Assembly (NCBI GenBank): GCA_937920515.1
Contig: CALEUG010000001.1
Span: forward strand, 1 to 64,000
Length of the DNA stretch: 64,000 nucleotides
From: an uncultured bacterium
GTDB lineage: Bacteria; Acidobacteriota; Aminicenantia; Aminicenantales; Saccharicenantaceae
Direction of reading: 5' to 3'
Part shown: positions 39,563 through 48,747 of the stretch, one piece after another
Numbering within the stretch: position 1 is the stretch's first letter
Layout of the letters: every line of letters begins with the position of its first letter
Program-made: the position numbers and the translations under genes
Notes under the pieces: model-generated
Told to the model about the DNA's origin: nothing
The model's database searches: none
Seen by the model: the letters and a program-made list of their open reading frames with translations, nothing else

Positions 39563-40495
39563 TCAGATGTATTCTATGGTGGCCGGCGGCTTGGGAGTAA
39601 TCTCGTAGGCTACCCGCACCACCGACGGAATCTCCCTGGTAATGCGGCTGGCCAGCCTGGTCAGGACGTCCCAGGGAACAGGAGTCGGCTGGGCGGTCAT
39701 GGCATCCAGGCTTTCCACCGACCTGACGATGATTATGTTGCCAAATTTTCTCCTGCCTTCCTCCACCCCGGTCCCCATGTCGTTCATCAATACGGCAAAA
39801 GCCTGGAAAGGCTGGAGGGGAGCCAGCTCTTCTTCCACAATCCTGGTGGCCCTGCGGACCAGCTCCACACGCTCCGGGGTGACCTCGCCGATGACCCTGG
39901 TGGCCAGGGCCGGGCCGGGAAAGGGCATCCTTTTGAAAATCAGCTCGGGCAGGCCCAGGGCCCGGCCGACTTCCCGTACCTCATGCTTGAACAATTCTTT
40001 TAAGGGCTCGATTATCTTGAAGCCGAAGCCTTTTTCCGGGTCAATCCCGATCTGCTCCAGGATGTTATGCTGGGTCTTAACCCCGCGCCTGGTTTCAATA
40101 ATGTCGGCGGCTATGGTCCCCTGGATCAGGTACCTGGCCTTACTCTTCAGAACCTGGCGGCCAAAGACCTTGTAGAAAGTATTGCGGAAGGCTTTCCTTT
40201 TTTCTTCCGGGTCAGTCTTTCCCTTCAGAGCTTCGAAAAATTCGTTACTGGCATCCACTATTTCCAGTTCTATGCCCAGGCGGGCAAAGGTAGCCCTGAC
40301 CTCTTCCGGTTCTTTTTCTCTCATCAGCCCGTGGTCAATAAAGATGGTCTTGAGCTGCGAACCAAGGGCCCGGTGGGCCAGCAGGGTGGCCACCGAGCTA
40401 TCCACTCCACCAGAGAGGGCGGAGATAGCTTTATCCCTGCCTACTGTTTCTTTTATTTCCTCTACCTGGCGCTCGATAAATTTTTTGACGTCCAT
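39563..40495 (-). CDS. guaA: GMP synthase ATP-pyrophosphatase + dimerization domain only (subunit B type)
   Basis: ALSGGVDSSVATLLAHRALG, FIDHGLMRE, FPGPALATRVIGE, TPKPPATIEYI C-terminus; no GATase domain. Confidence 0.92.
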   Translation of the reverse strand: MDVKKFIERQVEEIKETVGRDKAISALSGGVDSSVATLLAHRALGSQLKTIFIDHGLMREKEPEEVRATFARLGIELEIVDASNEFFEALKGKTDPEEKRKAFRNTFYKVFGRQVLKSKARYLIQGTIAADIIETRRGVKTQHNILEQIGIDPEKGFGFKIIEPLKELFKHEVREVGRALGLPELIFKRMPFPGPALATRVIGEVTPERVELVRRATRIVEEELAPLQPFQAFAVLMNDMGTGVEEGRRKFGNIIIVRSVESLDAMTAQPTPVPWDVLTRLASRITREIPSVVRVAYEITPKPPATIEYI

Positions 40496-42568: not shown

Positions 42569-43918
42569 ATGAAATTGCTAAAACTAAACATCTCCGGCGT
42601 CCGCGGCATCGTCGGACAGACCATCACTCCAGAACTGGTCATAGATTTTGCTTCAGCTTTTGGAACCATGCTGCCGGCCGGAAAGGTCCTGGCAGGCCGC
42701 GACAGCCGGAAATCAGGGTTGATGGTGCAGGAAGCGGCGGTCTCGGCCCTTCTCTCCACCGGTCACGAAGTTGTCAATCTTGGAATCTGCCCCACCCCCA
42801 TCATCCAGTTCCTGGTGAAGCAGCACCGGGCCGCCGGGGCCATTGCCATCACCGCCGGGCACAACCCGGCCGAGTGGAATGCCCTGAATTTCATCAACAG
42901 CCAGGGCACCTACCTCAACGAATTCCAGGGTTCGGAGCTGCTCGATATTTACCACCTGGGGCATTTTGCCCACCAGAAGCTTAAAAAATCCCCGGCAGTG
43001 GTCAATGAGCTTAACGCGGAAGAGGTCTATTTTTCCTGGTTGAGCCGCCGGCTGCGAACGGAAGAAATCAGCCGGGCCAGGTTCAAGGTGGTGGTCGACC
43101 CCTGCAACGGGGCCGGGGCCGGGCTGGTCAACAAGTTTTTCCAATCCCTGGGTTGCGAGCTGGTGGCCGTCAACAACGAGCCCAGCGGCTATTTTCCCCA
43201 CGAACCGGAACCGCGCCCCAGGAATGCCGGTGAGGTGTCCTCGCTGGTCAGGGCCACCGGGGCCAGCGTGGGCTTTCTTCTTAACAGCGACGTCAGCCGC
43301 GTCTCCCTGGTGGCCGAGACCGGGGAAACCCTGTCGGAAGAATACACCCTGCCGGTTGTGGCCGGTTATTACTTAGAGCAGCAGCCGGGACCGGTCATCA
43401 CCAGCCTTTCCACCTCCCGCATGATTGAAGAAGTGGCGGCCAGGTCCCGGGTCCCGGTCATCAGAACCAGGGTTGGCCAGTCGGCCCTCGTCCAGACGAT
43501 GCTCCAGGAAGACGGGGCCCTGGCCGGAGAGGGCAGCGGCGGGCTGGCCCTCCGCCGCTTTCAGCCGGCCTTTGATGGCTTTGCGGTCATGGGCCTGGTC
43601 CTGGAAGCGATGGCCGTTAAGCAAAAAAAACTTTCAGAGCTGGTAAAAGCTCTTCCCCGCTATCATATAGTCAAGGATAAAATAGTCTGCCCGCCCCACC
43701 GCCTGCACTCGCTGGTGGCTGAAACCAGAAAACTTTACCCCCGGGCTGAAATCAATCTCCTCGATGGATTGCACGTTACCCTGAAAGAGGCCTGGGTGCA
43801 CATCAGGGCTTCCAGCACCGAGCCCCTAATCAGGATAATTGCCGAAAGCCCTTCGGCCACCAGGGCCCAGCTCGAGGTAGACAGGGTGGTAGCTTTCCTT
43901 AACCGATTACTCGGGTAA
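42569..43918 (+). CDS. phosphohexomutase-fold protein (GlmM/PMM-like) lacking catalytic residues, predicted pseudoenzyme
   Basis: family-wide similarity to the downstream paralog; ITAGHNP instead of TASHNP; NSDVSR instead of DADADR. Confidence 0.88.
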   Translation: MKLLKLNISGVRGIVGQTITPELVIDFASAFGTMLPAGKVLAGRDSRKSGLMVQEAAVSALLSTGHEVVNLGICPTPIIQFLVKQHRAAGAIAITAGHNPAEWNALNFINSQGTYLNEFQGSELLDIYHLGHFAHQKLKKSPAVVNELNAEEVYFSWLSRRLRTEEISRARFKVVVDPCNGAGAGLVNKFFQSLGCELVAVNNEPSGYFPHEPEPRPRNAGEVSSLVRATGASVGFLLNSDVSRVSLVAETGETLSEEYTLPVVAGYYLEQQPGPVITSLSTSRMIEEVAARSRVPVIRTRVGQSALVQTMLQEDGALAGEGSGGLALRRFQPAFDGFAVMGLVLEAMAVKQKKLSELVKALPRYHIVKDKIVCPPHRLHSLVAETRKLYPRAEINLLDGLHVTLKEAWVHIRASSTEPLIRIIAESPSATRAQLEVDRVVAFLNRLLG

Positions 43919-43921
43919 AAC

Positions 43922-45289
43922 ATGAAAAAGAGATTTCCACTCAAGGTTAGCATCTCCGGCGTCCGGGGAATTATCGGAGAAAGCCTGACCCCTCAGATTG
44001 CCGCCCGGTTCGCCTCGGCCTTCGGCACCTACCTCGGACCGGGACAGGTCCTGGTCGGGCAGGATACCAGACCCTCGGGCACCATGCTCAAAAAGGCCGT
44101 CCTGAGCGGGTTGCTGGCCACCGGCTGCCAGCCGGTTGAAGTCGGCGTGCTTCCCATCCCCACCATTCTTTTCCTCACCCGCGAGAAACAGGTCCGGGGG
44201 GCGGTGGTAATCACCGCCAGTCATAACCCCCCGGAATGGAACGGGCTTAAATTCATCGGGCCGGAGGGGCTTTACCTCCGTCGCTCCCAGGTGGAAGAAT
44301 TCCTGGACATATTCCACCAGGGAGAATTCACCTTCGTGGCGGCCGAAAGAATCAAGGCCCCGCTCCAGGAGAAAAAGGCCGGGGAGCTCCACCTTGAAAA
44401 AATTCTGTCGCGACTTAAAGTTAAAGCCATCCGCCGCCGTGGGTTCCGGGTGGTGGCTGATTGCGCCAACGGGGCCGGCGCCACGCTCCTGCCCCAGCTT
44501 CTCAGGGAACTCGGCTGCGAGACTCTTCTCATCAACACCGACCTCAGCGGGAGCTTTGCCCATCAGTCGGAGCCAGTCCCGGAAAACCTCAAAGAGCTCT
44601 CCCGCCGGGTTAAAGAATTCAGGGCTGACCTGGGCCTGGCCCAGGATGCCGACGCCGACCGCCTGGCCCTGGTGGATGAAAGGGGTCGCCCCCTGGGAGA
44701 AGACCTGACCCTGATTCTGGCAGTGGCCCATGTGCTCGGTAAGAAGCGTGGCCCGGTGGCCGTAAATCTCTCAGCTTCCATGGCCATAGACGAACTGGCG
44801 GCCAGGTACCGGGTTCCGGTCATCAGGACCAGGATCGGAGAAATCAACGTGGTCGAAGCCATACTGGAGCAGGGCGCGGTCATCGGCGGCGAAGGTAACG
44901 GCGGAGTCATCTGGCCGGAAATCCACCCCTGCCGTGATTCTCTAACCGCAGCCGGCCTAATGCTGGAAATGCTGGCCGAGAACCAGAAGCCACTGTCGGA
45001 GACGGCCGCTGAATTTAAGAAGTATCACCTGTTGAAGGATAAAATGGACTGCCCGGCTGAACTGGCCTTCCGGGCGCTGGTTGAATTGAGACGACGCTAT
45101 CAGTCTGAAAATATTTCCACCCTGGATGGAATTAAAATAAGCTGGCCCGACTCCTGGGTCCATATCAGGCCGTCCAATACCGAACCCATCATCAGGCTGC
45201 TGGCTGAATCCCGGTCGCCGGTCCGCAGCCGGCGTTTAATAGAAAATTTTAAGAAAGAAATCAAGAGCATCATCAGGAAGCTGGCCTGA
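43922..45289 (+). CDS. phosphoglucosamine mutase/phosphomannomutase family, intact active site
   Basis: VITASHNPPEWNGLKF, QDADADRLALVDE, GGEGNGGVI, RPSNTEPIIRL. Confidence 0.94.
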   Translation: MKKRFPLKVSISGVRGIIGESLTPQIAARFASAFGTYLGPGQVLVGQDTRPSGTMLKKAVLSGLLATGCQPVEVGVLPIPTILFLTREKQVRGAVVITASHNPPEWNGLKFIGPEGLYLRRSQVEEFLDIFHQGEFTFVAAERIKAPLQEKKAGELHLEKILSRLKVKAIRRRGFRVVADCANGAGATLLPQLLRELGCETLLINTDLSGSFAHQSEPVPENLKELSRRVKEFRADLGLAQDADADRLALVDERGRPLGEDLTLILAVAHVLGKKRGPVAVNLSASMAIDELAARYRVPVIRTRIGEINVVEAILEQGAVIGGEGNGGVIWPEIHPCRDSLTAAGLMLEMLAENQKPLSETAAEFKKYHLLKDKMDCPAELAFRALVELRRRYQSENISTLDGIKISWPDSWVHIRPSNTEPIIRLLAESRSPVRSRRLIENFKKEIKSIIRKLA

Positions 45290-45369
45290 GGCGGCCGTCT
45301 GGGCTCAAGCGGCAATTCGGTTTAATAAAAAATACAAAATTGAGCAATAAAAAGAGGCAGGGTTCAGAC

Positions 45370-48300
45370 ATGAGTCTTAAAGAAAAATCTGGCTTTAGAA
45401 GCGTACCGGGAGTCCTGGCCCTGGTTATGTTAAGCCTGGCAGGTCTTCGGGCCCAACCCCCGGCAGAAGCCTGGCTTAACGGCTACCAGAGAACCATAGA
45501 AAGCCAGAAAATTTTTTATCATTCACCCTATCCCGATCAGCTACCGGCCCTGCTGGTCAGAGCCAGCGACGGCACAATGAAATCAGTCTGGGAAACACAG
45601 GTTGTCCCGGCCGATTTCAGCGCTTCCGCTGCGGTCTTTGTCTTCATGGGTGGCCTGGCCACGGGCAAGGGCAGTCATCGCTTTTACCTTAAGGTCAACG
45701 GGGCTCAAGCCCTGGAATTCACCACTTCAGAAAACCCGGCCAGAAGAGAGTGGACAGTTCTCGGTCCGGAAGGTCTGGGACTTACTTTCAGAACAGCTCT
45801 GGTTGACCAGTTTGACGAGCTATTCGGCTATTTCTTCCTGACCGTCCCTCGTCGTTTCCTGGAGCCAGGGAAACCGCTCCGGCTGGAACTTACGGCCGAG
45901 AAAGGCGGAAGTTCCGACTGGGTGATGGTCTTTGAGCAGCCGCTTTCTTCCTGGGCCAGGCTGAAGGTCCTGCCGGCCATCCTGAACACAAGGCCCCGGC
46001 GGCAGCCCCTGCTGCTGGAAATAAGTCATTTCGGACCTCCGGTTTCAGTCCGGATAAAAATGGGCCGGAATATTTCCGTCTCCAAGACCTTGCAGACCGG
46101 TTACAACCAGCTATACCTGGAAACCGAACCGGTCAGCAATCCGGCCCGGGTTGAAGCCGTCGTCCTCAGGGGAAAAGAACTTCTGTTCCGGGCAGCTTGC
46201 GAGCAAAAACCGGTTCGGGCGATAGAATTATGGCTTCTCCCCCATTCCCACCTGGACATTGGTTATTCAGATTACCAGGAAGAAGTAGAAAAGAAACAGT
46301 GGCAGAACATAGAAACCGCCATAGAACTGGCCGAGAAATCGCAATCCCTGCCTCCCGAGGCCAGGTTCAAATGGAACGTGGAACAACTGTGGCATGTTGA
46401 AACCTATTTGCGAAAAGCTGACGAACAAAAGCGAGAAAAATTATTGCGAGCCGTAAAGAATGGCTGGATAGGACTCCAGGCCACCCTAACCAACCAGCTG
46501 ACCGGTCTCTGCCACCCGGAGGAACTGCTGGAACTCACAGCTTTTGCCAGGGAGCTGGAAACCATGGGTTTCCCGCCGGTCACATCGGCCATGATCACTG
46601 ATATCCCGAGCTACAGCTGGTCCTTTGTTCCGGCGCTGGCCCTGGCCGGGGTTCGCTATCTTTCCAGCGGTCCCAACTTCATGCCCGTCCTGCCCGACGG
46701 CGGCGACCGGGTTGGCCGGGCTCTCAGGACCTGGGCCGACCGGCCGTTTTACTGGGTCTCACCTTCCGGCCAGGAAAAGGTTCTTTTCTGGATGGCCGGG
46801 CGCGGTTATTCCTGGTTCCACGGGCTGAACCTGGGAAACTTCAGGGTTGACAAAAAAAGAGAAATCCTGGAATACGTGGCCGAACTGGAAAACAAGAACT
46901 ATCCCTATTCTCTGGTGCAGGTCCGCTACACCGTGGGTGGAGACAACGGCCCCCCGGACCCGGACCTCAGCCGGGAAGTGGCCGCCTGGAACAAAGAATT
47001 CCTGACACCTCGCCTGGTGATCGCCACCAGCGAACAGCTTTTCCTGGAAATGGAAAAAAGGCACGGCCTGGAAATCCCGGCCATCCGCGGTGATTTTTCG
47101 CCATACTGGGAAGACGGCGCGGCCTCCACCGCCCGGGAAACCGCCCTGAACCGGAATCTCAGCGAGCGGCTGCTGCAGCTCGAAACTCTGTATTCGCTCC
47201 TGGTGCCGGAAGAATTCATTAAAAAATCAGCCGATTTTTACGAAGCCTGGCGCCAGGTAGTACTTTTTCACGAGCATACCTGGGGAGCCCACGACAGCGT
47301 CTCCAACCCGGATGGAGAAAACGCTACCCGGCAATGGGAATACAAGAAGTCCATCCTGGAAAAGGGACAGGAACTGGCTAATTCGCTGGAAGAAGACCTG
47401 AAGGCCATAATGAGCTCCAGAGAGGAGGAAGCTTTATCCAGAAGAAAGGTGCTCGACATCATCAACACCACCTCGCTGACCAGGTCAGAAATCATTTTTA
47501 TACCGGCTGAACTCTCGGCCGGCCTTGACCTGGTACTGGATGAAAACAACCGCTCCCTGCCTTCACAGAGGCTGGTTGATGGCACCCTGGCTGTTAAAAT
47601 AAGCCGGCTTCAACCATTTTCTGCCCGCCGCATCTACCTTAAGACCGGCAGTAGCTGGCCCGGCGGCCTGGCCCGGGCCGGGGAAAACTTCCTGGAGAAT
47701 GAGCAGCTTCGCCTGGAAGTCAGCCCGGAAACAGGGGCGGTGAGCAGCCTGATCTTCAAGCCGGCCCGAAACCTGGAACTGGTGGACAGCGAGAAATTCT
47801 CCGGGCTCAATGCCTATCTCTATGTTCCCGGGACCGACCCGGAAAAAGCCCGGCCGGCCAGGGTTCGCCAGGTACGGGTACTGGATTCCGGCCCTCTGGT
47901 GGCTTCGCTGGAGATAGAGCTGGAAGCCCCAGGATGTCACAGCCTGAAGGCAGTAATCAGGATTAACGGAATCAACGGCCGGATAGACTTCTTTAATCAC
48001 ATTGACAAGATAAAGGTCAGGGAAAAGGAAAGCGTTCACATAGCCTTTCCGTTCCGGATGCCTCCAACCGGAATCCGCCTTGACCTCGGCTGGGGCGCAG
48101 TCAATCCTTTCTTTGAAGAAATCCCGGGAGCCTGCCTGGATTTTTTTTCTGTTCAAAAAGCGGTGAGTTTCAGCCGGCCGGATTTTAACCTGACCTGGGT
48201 AACGCCGGATGCCCCACTGGTGGAAATTGGCGAATTGACGGATGAAAGAAGCGTCGGAGGCTTTCCCCGGGCCTGGAAAAAAGAGCTCCAGCCCTCTTCA

Positions 48301-48747
48301 ACGATTATTTCCTATGCCCTGAATAACTACTGGCATACCAATTACAAGGCCGACCAGGAAGGAGAAATCGAACTTCGCTATTCCCTTTTCCTCAACTCTA
48401 ATCTGGACCCGGCACTGCTCAAGACCCAGGCCCTTGAGGTCTGTCAGCCTCCGGTTATAATGCCGGTTGACGAAAGACGGGTACCCCTGCAGCCGGTTCT
48501 TAACCTCGAGCCGGAAAGGGTCGTGGTCACCAGGTTAAAGGCCATCCCGGGAGTTTCCGACTCCAGGCCGGCTCTGCTGCTCAGACTGTACAACGCCGGC
48601 GGACAACCAGAAACAATCAACCTCAAGGGGCTTCTTTTTCCCGGAAGAAAAGTCTATTTATCCAACCTGAAAGGAGAACCACTGGCCCAGGTCACCCGGC
48701 CTTTCCGGATGCTGCCCTGGGAGGTGGTAACTCTTCGGGTGGAATGA
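45370..48747 (+). CDS. glycoside hydrolase family 38-like (alpha-mannosidase) secreted enzyme
   Basis: ELWLLPHSHLDIGYSDYQEEVEKK, ARFKWNVEQLWHVE, ITDIPSYSWSFVPALALAGVRYLSSGPN; alternative start 45340. Confidence 0.85.
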   Translation: MSLKEKSGFRSVPGVLALVMLSLAGLRAQPPAEAWLNGYQRTIESQKIFYHSPYPDQLPALLVRASDGTMKSVWETQVVPADFSASAAVFVFMGGLATGKGSHRFYLKVNGAQALEFTTSENPARREWTVLGPEGLGLTFRTALVDQFDELFGYFFLTVPRRFLEPGKPLRLELTAEKGGSSDWVMVFEQPLSSWARLKVLPAILNTRPRRQPLLLEISHFGPPVSVRIKMGRNISVSKTLQTGYNQLYLETEPVSNPARVEAVVLRGKELLFRAACEQKPVRAIELWLLPHSHLDIGYSDYQEEVEKKQWQNIETAIELAEKSQSLPPEARFKWNVEQLWHVETYLRKADEQKREKLLRAVKNGWIGLQATLTNQLTGLCHPEELLELTAFARELETMGFPPVTSAMITDIPSYSWSFVPALALAGVRYLSSGPNFMPVLPDGGDRVGRALRTWADRPFYWVSPSGQEKVLFWMAGRGYSWFHGLNLGNFRVDKKREILEYVAELENKNYPYSLVQVRYTVGGDNGPPDPDLSREVAAWNKEFLTPRLVIATSEQLFLEMEKRHGLEIPAIRGDFSPYWEDGAASTARETALNRNLSERLLQLETLYSLLVPEEFIKKSADFYEAWRQVVLFHEHTWGAHDSVSNPDGENATRQWEYKKSILEKGQELANSLEEDLKAIMSSREEEALSRRKVLDIINTTSLTRSEIIFIPAELSAGLDLVLDENNRSLPSQRLVDGTLAVKISRLQPFSARRIYLKTGSSWPGGLARAGENFLENEQLRLEVSPETGAVSSLIFKPARNLELVDSEKFSGLNAYLYVPGTDPEKARPARVRQVRVLDSGPLVASLEIELEAPGCHSLKAVIRINGINGRIDFFNHIDKIKVREKESVHIAFPFRMPPTGIRLDLGWGAVNPFFEEIPGACLDFFSVQKAVSFSRPDFNLTWVTPDAPLVEIGELTDERSVGGFPRAWKKELQPSSTIISYALNNYWHTNYKADQEGEIELRYSLFLNSNLDPALLKTQALEVCQPPVIMPVDERRVPLQPVLNLEPERVVVTRLKAIPGVSDSRPALLLRLYNAGGQPETINLKGLLFPGRKVYLSNLKGEPLAQVTRPFRMLPWEVVTLRVE

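Follow-up and report, generated by a model that had tools for sequence, protein, structure and literature searches.

Phosphohexomutases are textbook single-gene enzymes. Why, then, would a bacterium keep a second, apparently inactive phosphohexomutase gene directly upstream of an intact one? The question is raised by a 64,000-nucleotide stretch of DNA from an uncultured bacterium of the Aminicenantales (Acidobacteriota; contig CALEUG010000001.1, positions 1 to 64,000), referred to here as the window, whose features lie on the forward strand unless stated otherwise. Gene A (42569-43918; 449 amino acids) encodes a phosphohexomutase pseudoenzyme, as judged from its open reading frame, four Pfam domains, ortholog comparison, and an AlphaFold2 model. 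Gene B (43922-45289; 455 amino acids) is, on the basis of its TIGR03990 and Pfam matches, an archaeal-type phosphoglucosamine-mutase homolog with its catalytic residues intact. The two are separated by three bases, AAC (43919-43921), and in many relatives they overlap by 4 bases or 1 base. A reading made from the window's letters alone (the sequence-only reading) had described A and B as a pseudoenzyme-enzyme system, and its open reading frames, coordinates, and motifs for both genes proved exact to the base when we reread the sequence.

Catalytic sites and predicted fold

All four Pfam domains (PF02878, PF02879, PF02880, and PF00408) scored above their gathering cut-offs in both proteins, and the closest sequence family of both was that of the archaeal-type phosphoglucosamine mutases and phosphohexomutases (TIGR03990; PDB 9du5, 1wqa, and 9ix8). 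Against the TIGR03990 phosphoglucosamine mutase model, B scored 510.6 bits, passing the curated cut-off of 439 bits, and A scored 418 bits, falling under it.

Active phosphohexomutases carry a phospho-serine within T-x-S-H-N-P and a D-x-D-x-D-R metal loop. Ortholog alignment showed that B has both, in the form of the predicted phospho-serine Ser100 (AGT, 44219-44221; motif TASHNP) and the metal loop DADADR (44645-44662). A has neither. Its motif ITAGHNP places Gly97 (GGG, 42857-42859) where the catalytic phospho-serine should be, and its metal-loop site, AACAGCGACGTCAGCCGC (43283-43300), encodes NSDVSR instead of DxDxDR, keeping the middle Asp and the Arg. Both of these changes, and the intact state of B, had been pointed out in the sequence-only reading and were confirmed on rereading. 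Three losses can be added to its list, namely, Asn107 (AAT, 42887-42889) in place of the loop-1 Lys of HNPxxWNxLK (Lys110 of B), Gln304 (43478-43480) in place of the invariant loop-3 Glu (Glu307 of B), and Phe335 in place of Arg338 of B. The sugar-binding loop 3 is also altered, reading GEGSGG (43526-43543) where B has GEGNGG. The phosphate-binding loop 4 is retained in A as RASSTEPLIR (43805-43834), in agreement with the pattern R-x-S-x-T-E-P-x-x-R and with its conservation in first copies. Since the replacements are fixed likewise in orthologs that are 33 to 92% identical, they are not due to chance. Canonical catalysis has almost certainly been lost from the window's A.

An AlphaFold2 model of A, based on an alignment of 30 first copies, had a predicted local distance difference test (pLDDT) score of 93.9 and a predicted template modeling (pTM) score of 0.93. 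Its best PDB match was the Thermococcus kodakarensis phosphoglucomutase 9du5 (template modeling [TM] score of 0.92); with this match and its four domains, A belongs to the alpha-D-phosphohexomutase fold.

Conservation of the altered copy and its association with B

Within the genus, the pair was present in 16 of 19 genomes (the window's own included), with first copies 65 to 92% identical to A; the genus genomes G005, G007, and G018 gave no match to A above about 30% identity. Pairs were also found in more distant families of the order. In a close set of about 31 pairs, the phospho-serine was replaced by Gly in 31 of 31 first copies, D242 (B numbering) was Asn in 31 and Ser in 1, and D246 was Ser or Gly in all; B retained these residues in every case. 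The median within-genus ratio of nonsynonymous to synonymous substitution rates (dN/dS; Nei-Gojobori NG86 method, dS < 2.5) was 0.087 for A and 0.086 for B, which bears out the earlier proposal that the first copy is maintained rather than decaying.

We scored the core residues S100, D242, D244, and D246 (B numbering) across 105 nonredundant tandem pairs from Acidobacteriota, Verrucomicrobiota, Armatimonadota, and Planctomycetota, nearly all from metagenome-assembled genomes (MAGs). Gene 1 was altered at one or more of these residues in all 105 pairs, whereas gene 2 was altered in 2 of the 104 that could be scored and was truncated at the Ser in one other. Read in the order S100/D242/D244/D246, the gene 1 states were GNDS (61 pairs), SNDD (13), GSDG (7), GDDD (7), GDDE (6), and rarer others, so that the phospho-serine position held Gly in 87%, Ser in 12%, and Thr in 1% of first copies. 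The lost residues differed by clade, and no gene 1 clade had the fully intact set: in the SNDD clade, Ser is present and D242N is the only change, and in some Armatimonadota copies, Ser to Gly is the sole core change. The description of the first copy as dead thus stands insofar as canonical residues are lost in all, and it is certain only in that sense, the residues concerned differing among relatives. Arg12, His98, Arg244, and Arg413 were kept in 95 to 100% of first copies (by rounding), and within loop 4, Arg413 was found in 100%, Thr417 in 99%, and Arg422 in 99%.

A 98-row maximum likelihood tree, built in "quick" mode with the catalytic columns left out and supported by Shimodaira-Hasegawa-like approximate likelihood ratio test (SH-aLRT) values only, placed all A copies in one clade (SH-aLRT of 99), and the lesion state mapped onto it as a single change. 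The Ser of the SNDD clade may have been either kept or regained. A is therefore an ancient pseudoenzyme of single origin and not a recent lesion; relatives carrying an intact first copy, which the sequence-only reading had recognized would speak for a recent lesion, numbered 0 among the 105 pairs. In combining lost catalytic residues with purifying selection, A behaves as a conserved pseudoenzyme. The alteration of all 105 first copies and the dN/dS of A together rule out a recent lesion or pseudogene, and the recurrence of the same residues in about a hundred assemblies rules out an assembly error. We accordingly give virtually no credence to the idea that A is a decaying pseudogene or an artifact, for which we found nothing beyond the lost motifs themselves and against which intact frames and deep conservation also stand.

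Some loci departed from the general pattern. In three gut Lentisphaeria MAGs (L117:3658-5022, L118:7064-8431, and L119:6177-7541), the second copy is degenerating too: the His of TASH has become Gln, the metal-loop Arg has become Ser, and the phosphate loop differs as well, with the Ser and the three Asp residues remaining. The search in Armatimonadota turned up extra tandem pairs (L258 in genome G775 and L259 in genome G752) whose gene 2 also lacks the Ser; each of these genomes has an intact-looking B-type gene elsewhere. Finally, one pair from a genome labeled Armatimonadetes (L073, NC_groundwater_316) fell inside the Aminicenantes clade, reflecting either a mis-binned contig or horizontal transfer.

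To survey distribution, we used 13 aligned first copies to scan the species genomes of GTDB. Among the best 80 of 114 matches, the pair was found in Aminicenantes, other Acidobacteriota, Lentisphaerae/Victivallaceae, Kiritimatiellae, Armatimonadetes, and a planctomycete. B-type genes were then counted in sets of genomes whose phylum names follow the titles of the loci used as search centers. They occurred in 37 of 396 Acidobacteriota genomes, 32 of which had two matches; four of the remaining five carry pairs that turned up elsewhere. For the phylum of the Lentisphaerae locus, the count was 53 of 289 genomes, of which 39 had at least two matches; A was detected in another way in 11 of the remaining 14, which brings the genomes with both genes to about 50 of the 53. 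The figures were 34 of 121 genomes for the phylum of the Armatimonadetes locus and 42 of 199 for that of the planctomycete locus, where two matches were seen in one genome only. No A without B was found among the A-bearing genomes examined whole, contig-end cases not being excluded; one seemingly orphan first copy (L129) was rejected as such when its B was located on another contig. The distribution of A is nested inside that of B, and, as with prozymes, the dead paralog co-occurs with an active one.

The spacing of the genes is tight. The gap was -4 bases in 37 of the 105 pairs and -1 in 7 (44 together), and it lay between -20 and 60 bases in 90; start codons were set by rule, so a few loci may have inexact lengths. 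Such overlaps and short gaps are as expected for translational coupling. Patristic distances of A and B were correlated (r = 0.865; 0 of 2,000 permutations), which is weak evidence, the genes being co-inherited. More telling is the persistence of both genes when unlinked. In genomes G333, G433, G439, and G448, no partner adjoins A or B in the stretches around them, yet both are present, with A altered and B intact, and in G507, G583, and G752, A and B lie on different contigs. The co-conservation on which the sequence-only reading depended thus extends over four phyla and holds even where the genes are apart.

A possible noncatalytic subunit and its rivals

What might A do for B? Because A is kept under selection and almost never occurs without B, we consider it probable that A is a noncatalytic, probably ligand-binding subunit of a hetero-oligomeric mutase and regulates B. 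A would derive from an archaeal-type phosphohexomutase and be selectively maintained, and B would be the active mutase, probably on glucosamine- or N-acetylglucosamine-phosphate. The two would be cotranslated and join in a single hetero-oligomer, much as their closest solved relatives form a dimer-of-dimers homotetramer. Within it, A would carry out no phosphoryl transfer and, with its folded cleft and phosphate-binding loop kept, would stabilize, activate, or tune B, perhaps with a bound sugar phosphate serving as the allosteric signal. The T. kodakarensis phosphopentomutase is such a homotetramer (PMC11641776), making an A-B heterotetramer a natural guess, and PDB entries 9du5 and 1wqa have four chains each. 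A bolder version, in which A holds the sugar-1,6-bisphosphate intermediate in its cleft and returns it to B, keeping B phosphorylated, strikes us as improbable; if true, A would give the mutase its own reservoir of cofactor and a metabolite sensor for the flux of amino sugars.

Precedents for a pseudoenzyme-enzyme reading of A and B come from trypanosomatid prozymes and PGM5. In the prozymes of S-adenosylmethionine decarboxylase (AdoMetDC; PMC5201418) and deoxyhypusine synthase (PMC3663545), a dead paralog is maintained with an active one, as we propose for A and B, but these are eukaryotic proteins of unrelated folds for which the complex and its activation have been measured, whereas A and B are known from sequence and models. 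Vertebrate PGM5 (aciculin), like A, is a pseudoenzyme of the phosphohexomutase fold, without mutase activity but with substrate binding kept (PMC7761743). Unlike A, it keeps the serine and the metal loop (PMC7761743), belongs to the PGM1 branch, and is a muscle structural protein; nor is it genetically paired with its active paralog. The archaeal-type phosphohexomutases (TIGR03990; 9du5, 1wqa, and 9ix8) share their four-domain fold with A and B but are single-gene enzymes, from which A differs in having lost the phospho-serine, the metal loop, and other catalytic residues.

Several observations weigh against a regulatory subunit. A fused A-B fold, for which we used the L072 pair with its in-frame 42-base gap as a linker and the stop read as Gly (a computational device that implies no claim of read-through), reached a pTM of 0.65 from only nine paired rows and neither demonstrated nor excluded an interface; AlphaFold2 has been reported to place subunits wrongly in a related tetramer (PMC11641776). 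B occurs without A in Planctomycetota, in many Armatimonadota, and in three Verrucomicrobiota genomes, and A is therefore not universally required for B-type activity. Co-inheritance in an operon would by itself also yield co-occurrence and mirrored trees, and the SNDD clade of A, which keeps its Ser and has D242N alone, may retain some activity.

Other roles for A are less likely. It is unlikely, in our view, that A is a sugar-phosphate-binding sensor or the partner of a protein other than B, with the operon setting coexpression only. The retained phosphate loop and cleft would suit such a role, and the fold is known as a protein partner from the GlmM-CdaA complexes (7ojs, 7olh, and 9g69), but in those complexes an active GlmM is bound to a diadenylate cyclase; among the conserved neighbors of the pair, we found no gene for a regulator or cyclase, and A accompanies a B even when the genes lie apart. 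Somewhat less likely still is a gain of different catalysis, for example, on a sugar bisphosphate, in a remodeled, metal-poor site. NSDxSR, GQS, GEGSG, and F335 are strongly conserved in the window's clade, which is not what random decay would give, but the core changes differ by clade (G+NDS, G+DDE, G+DDD, and S+NDD), and relaxed constraint on chemistry fits this better than one new chemistry does. We doubt most of all, these three compared, that A is a weak mutase or uses another nucleophile, making the pair two isoenzymes. Some Ser108 mutants of the Pseudomonas aeruginosa enzyme reportedly keep trace activity. Structures of such mutants exist (1k2y and 3rsm), and one A clade retains its Ser, but the window's A lacks the nucleophile, two of the three metal ligands, the loop-1 Lys, and the loop-3 Glu.

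Gene neighborhood and significance

The window's own neighbors, taken alone, are weak evidence for a substrate. Directly downstream lies a glycoside hydrolase family 38 (GH38; alpha-mannosidase-type) protein (45340-48747), the first gene downstream in 11 genus loci, followed by a GH2 protein with an exo-beta-D-glucosaminidase immunoglobulin-like domain (PF18368; 48815-51652), a neighbor in the window's genus. On the reverse strand, at 39563-40495, is a gene for a 310-amino-acid protein that, by eye only, resembles the ATP-pyrophosphatase part of GMP synthase, here encoded as a gene of its own; 11 genus loci have it at a conserved place close to the pair.

In several separate clades elsewhere, the context is that of glucosamine or N-acetylglucosamine phosphate. 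NagB is at +1 of the pair in 10 loci, NagA is found in 12, and GHMP (galactokinase-like) kinases are neighbors in 9, NagB-kinase fusions included. At L164:7854-9704 and at L161, the pair is directly followed by a gene that fuses NagB (glucosamine-6-phosphate deaminase) with a GHMP/galactokinase-like kinase, which suggests a route from sugar-1-kinase to mutase to deaminase. With NagB, NagA, and GHMP kinases beside the pair, we lean toward an amino sugar as the predicted substrate of B, and we infer that B interconverts its 1- and 6-phosphates, feeding or draining NagA/NagB. The sole NagB-family match of the window's own genome lies on another contig. Besides A and B, that genome has three other phosphohexomutase genes, five in all: one for a bacterial-type GlmM (TIGR01455 score of 497.5 bits against a cut-off of 447.55), one for a PgmG-like protein, and a further one. 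Since a bacterial-type GlmM is present, B is not the sole candidate glucosamine mutase of the cell. In 12 Lentisphaerae loci (L100, L120, L276, and nine others), a conserved haloacid dehalogenase (HAD) phosphatase of the HAD-IB type lies directly downstream of the pair; its nearest named models are histidinol-phosphatases, with scores below cut-off.

These findings call for caution in annotation, as the resemblance of dead A copies to phosphoglucosamine mutase would lead pathway reconstruction astray. Inactivation has reached different points in the sub-clades of A (loss of Ser alone, of one Asp alone, or of all), making a stepwise loss traceable. The pair occurs in little-cultured groups, but one carrier is a MAG labeled Victivallis vadensis (L096). 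Cultured isolates of this species exist, and the carrier therefore opens a route to experiments. We found no report of a pseudoenzyme-enzyme pair among bacterial phosphohexomutases in the open-access literature. If A does regulate B, the pair would be, as far as that literature shows, the first prozyme-type system in the superfamily.
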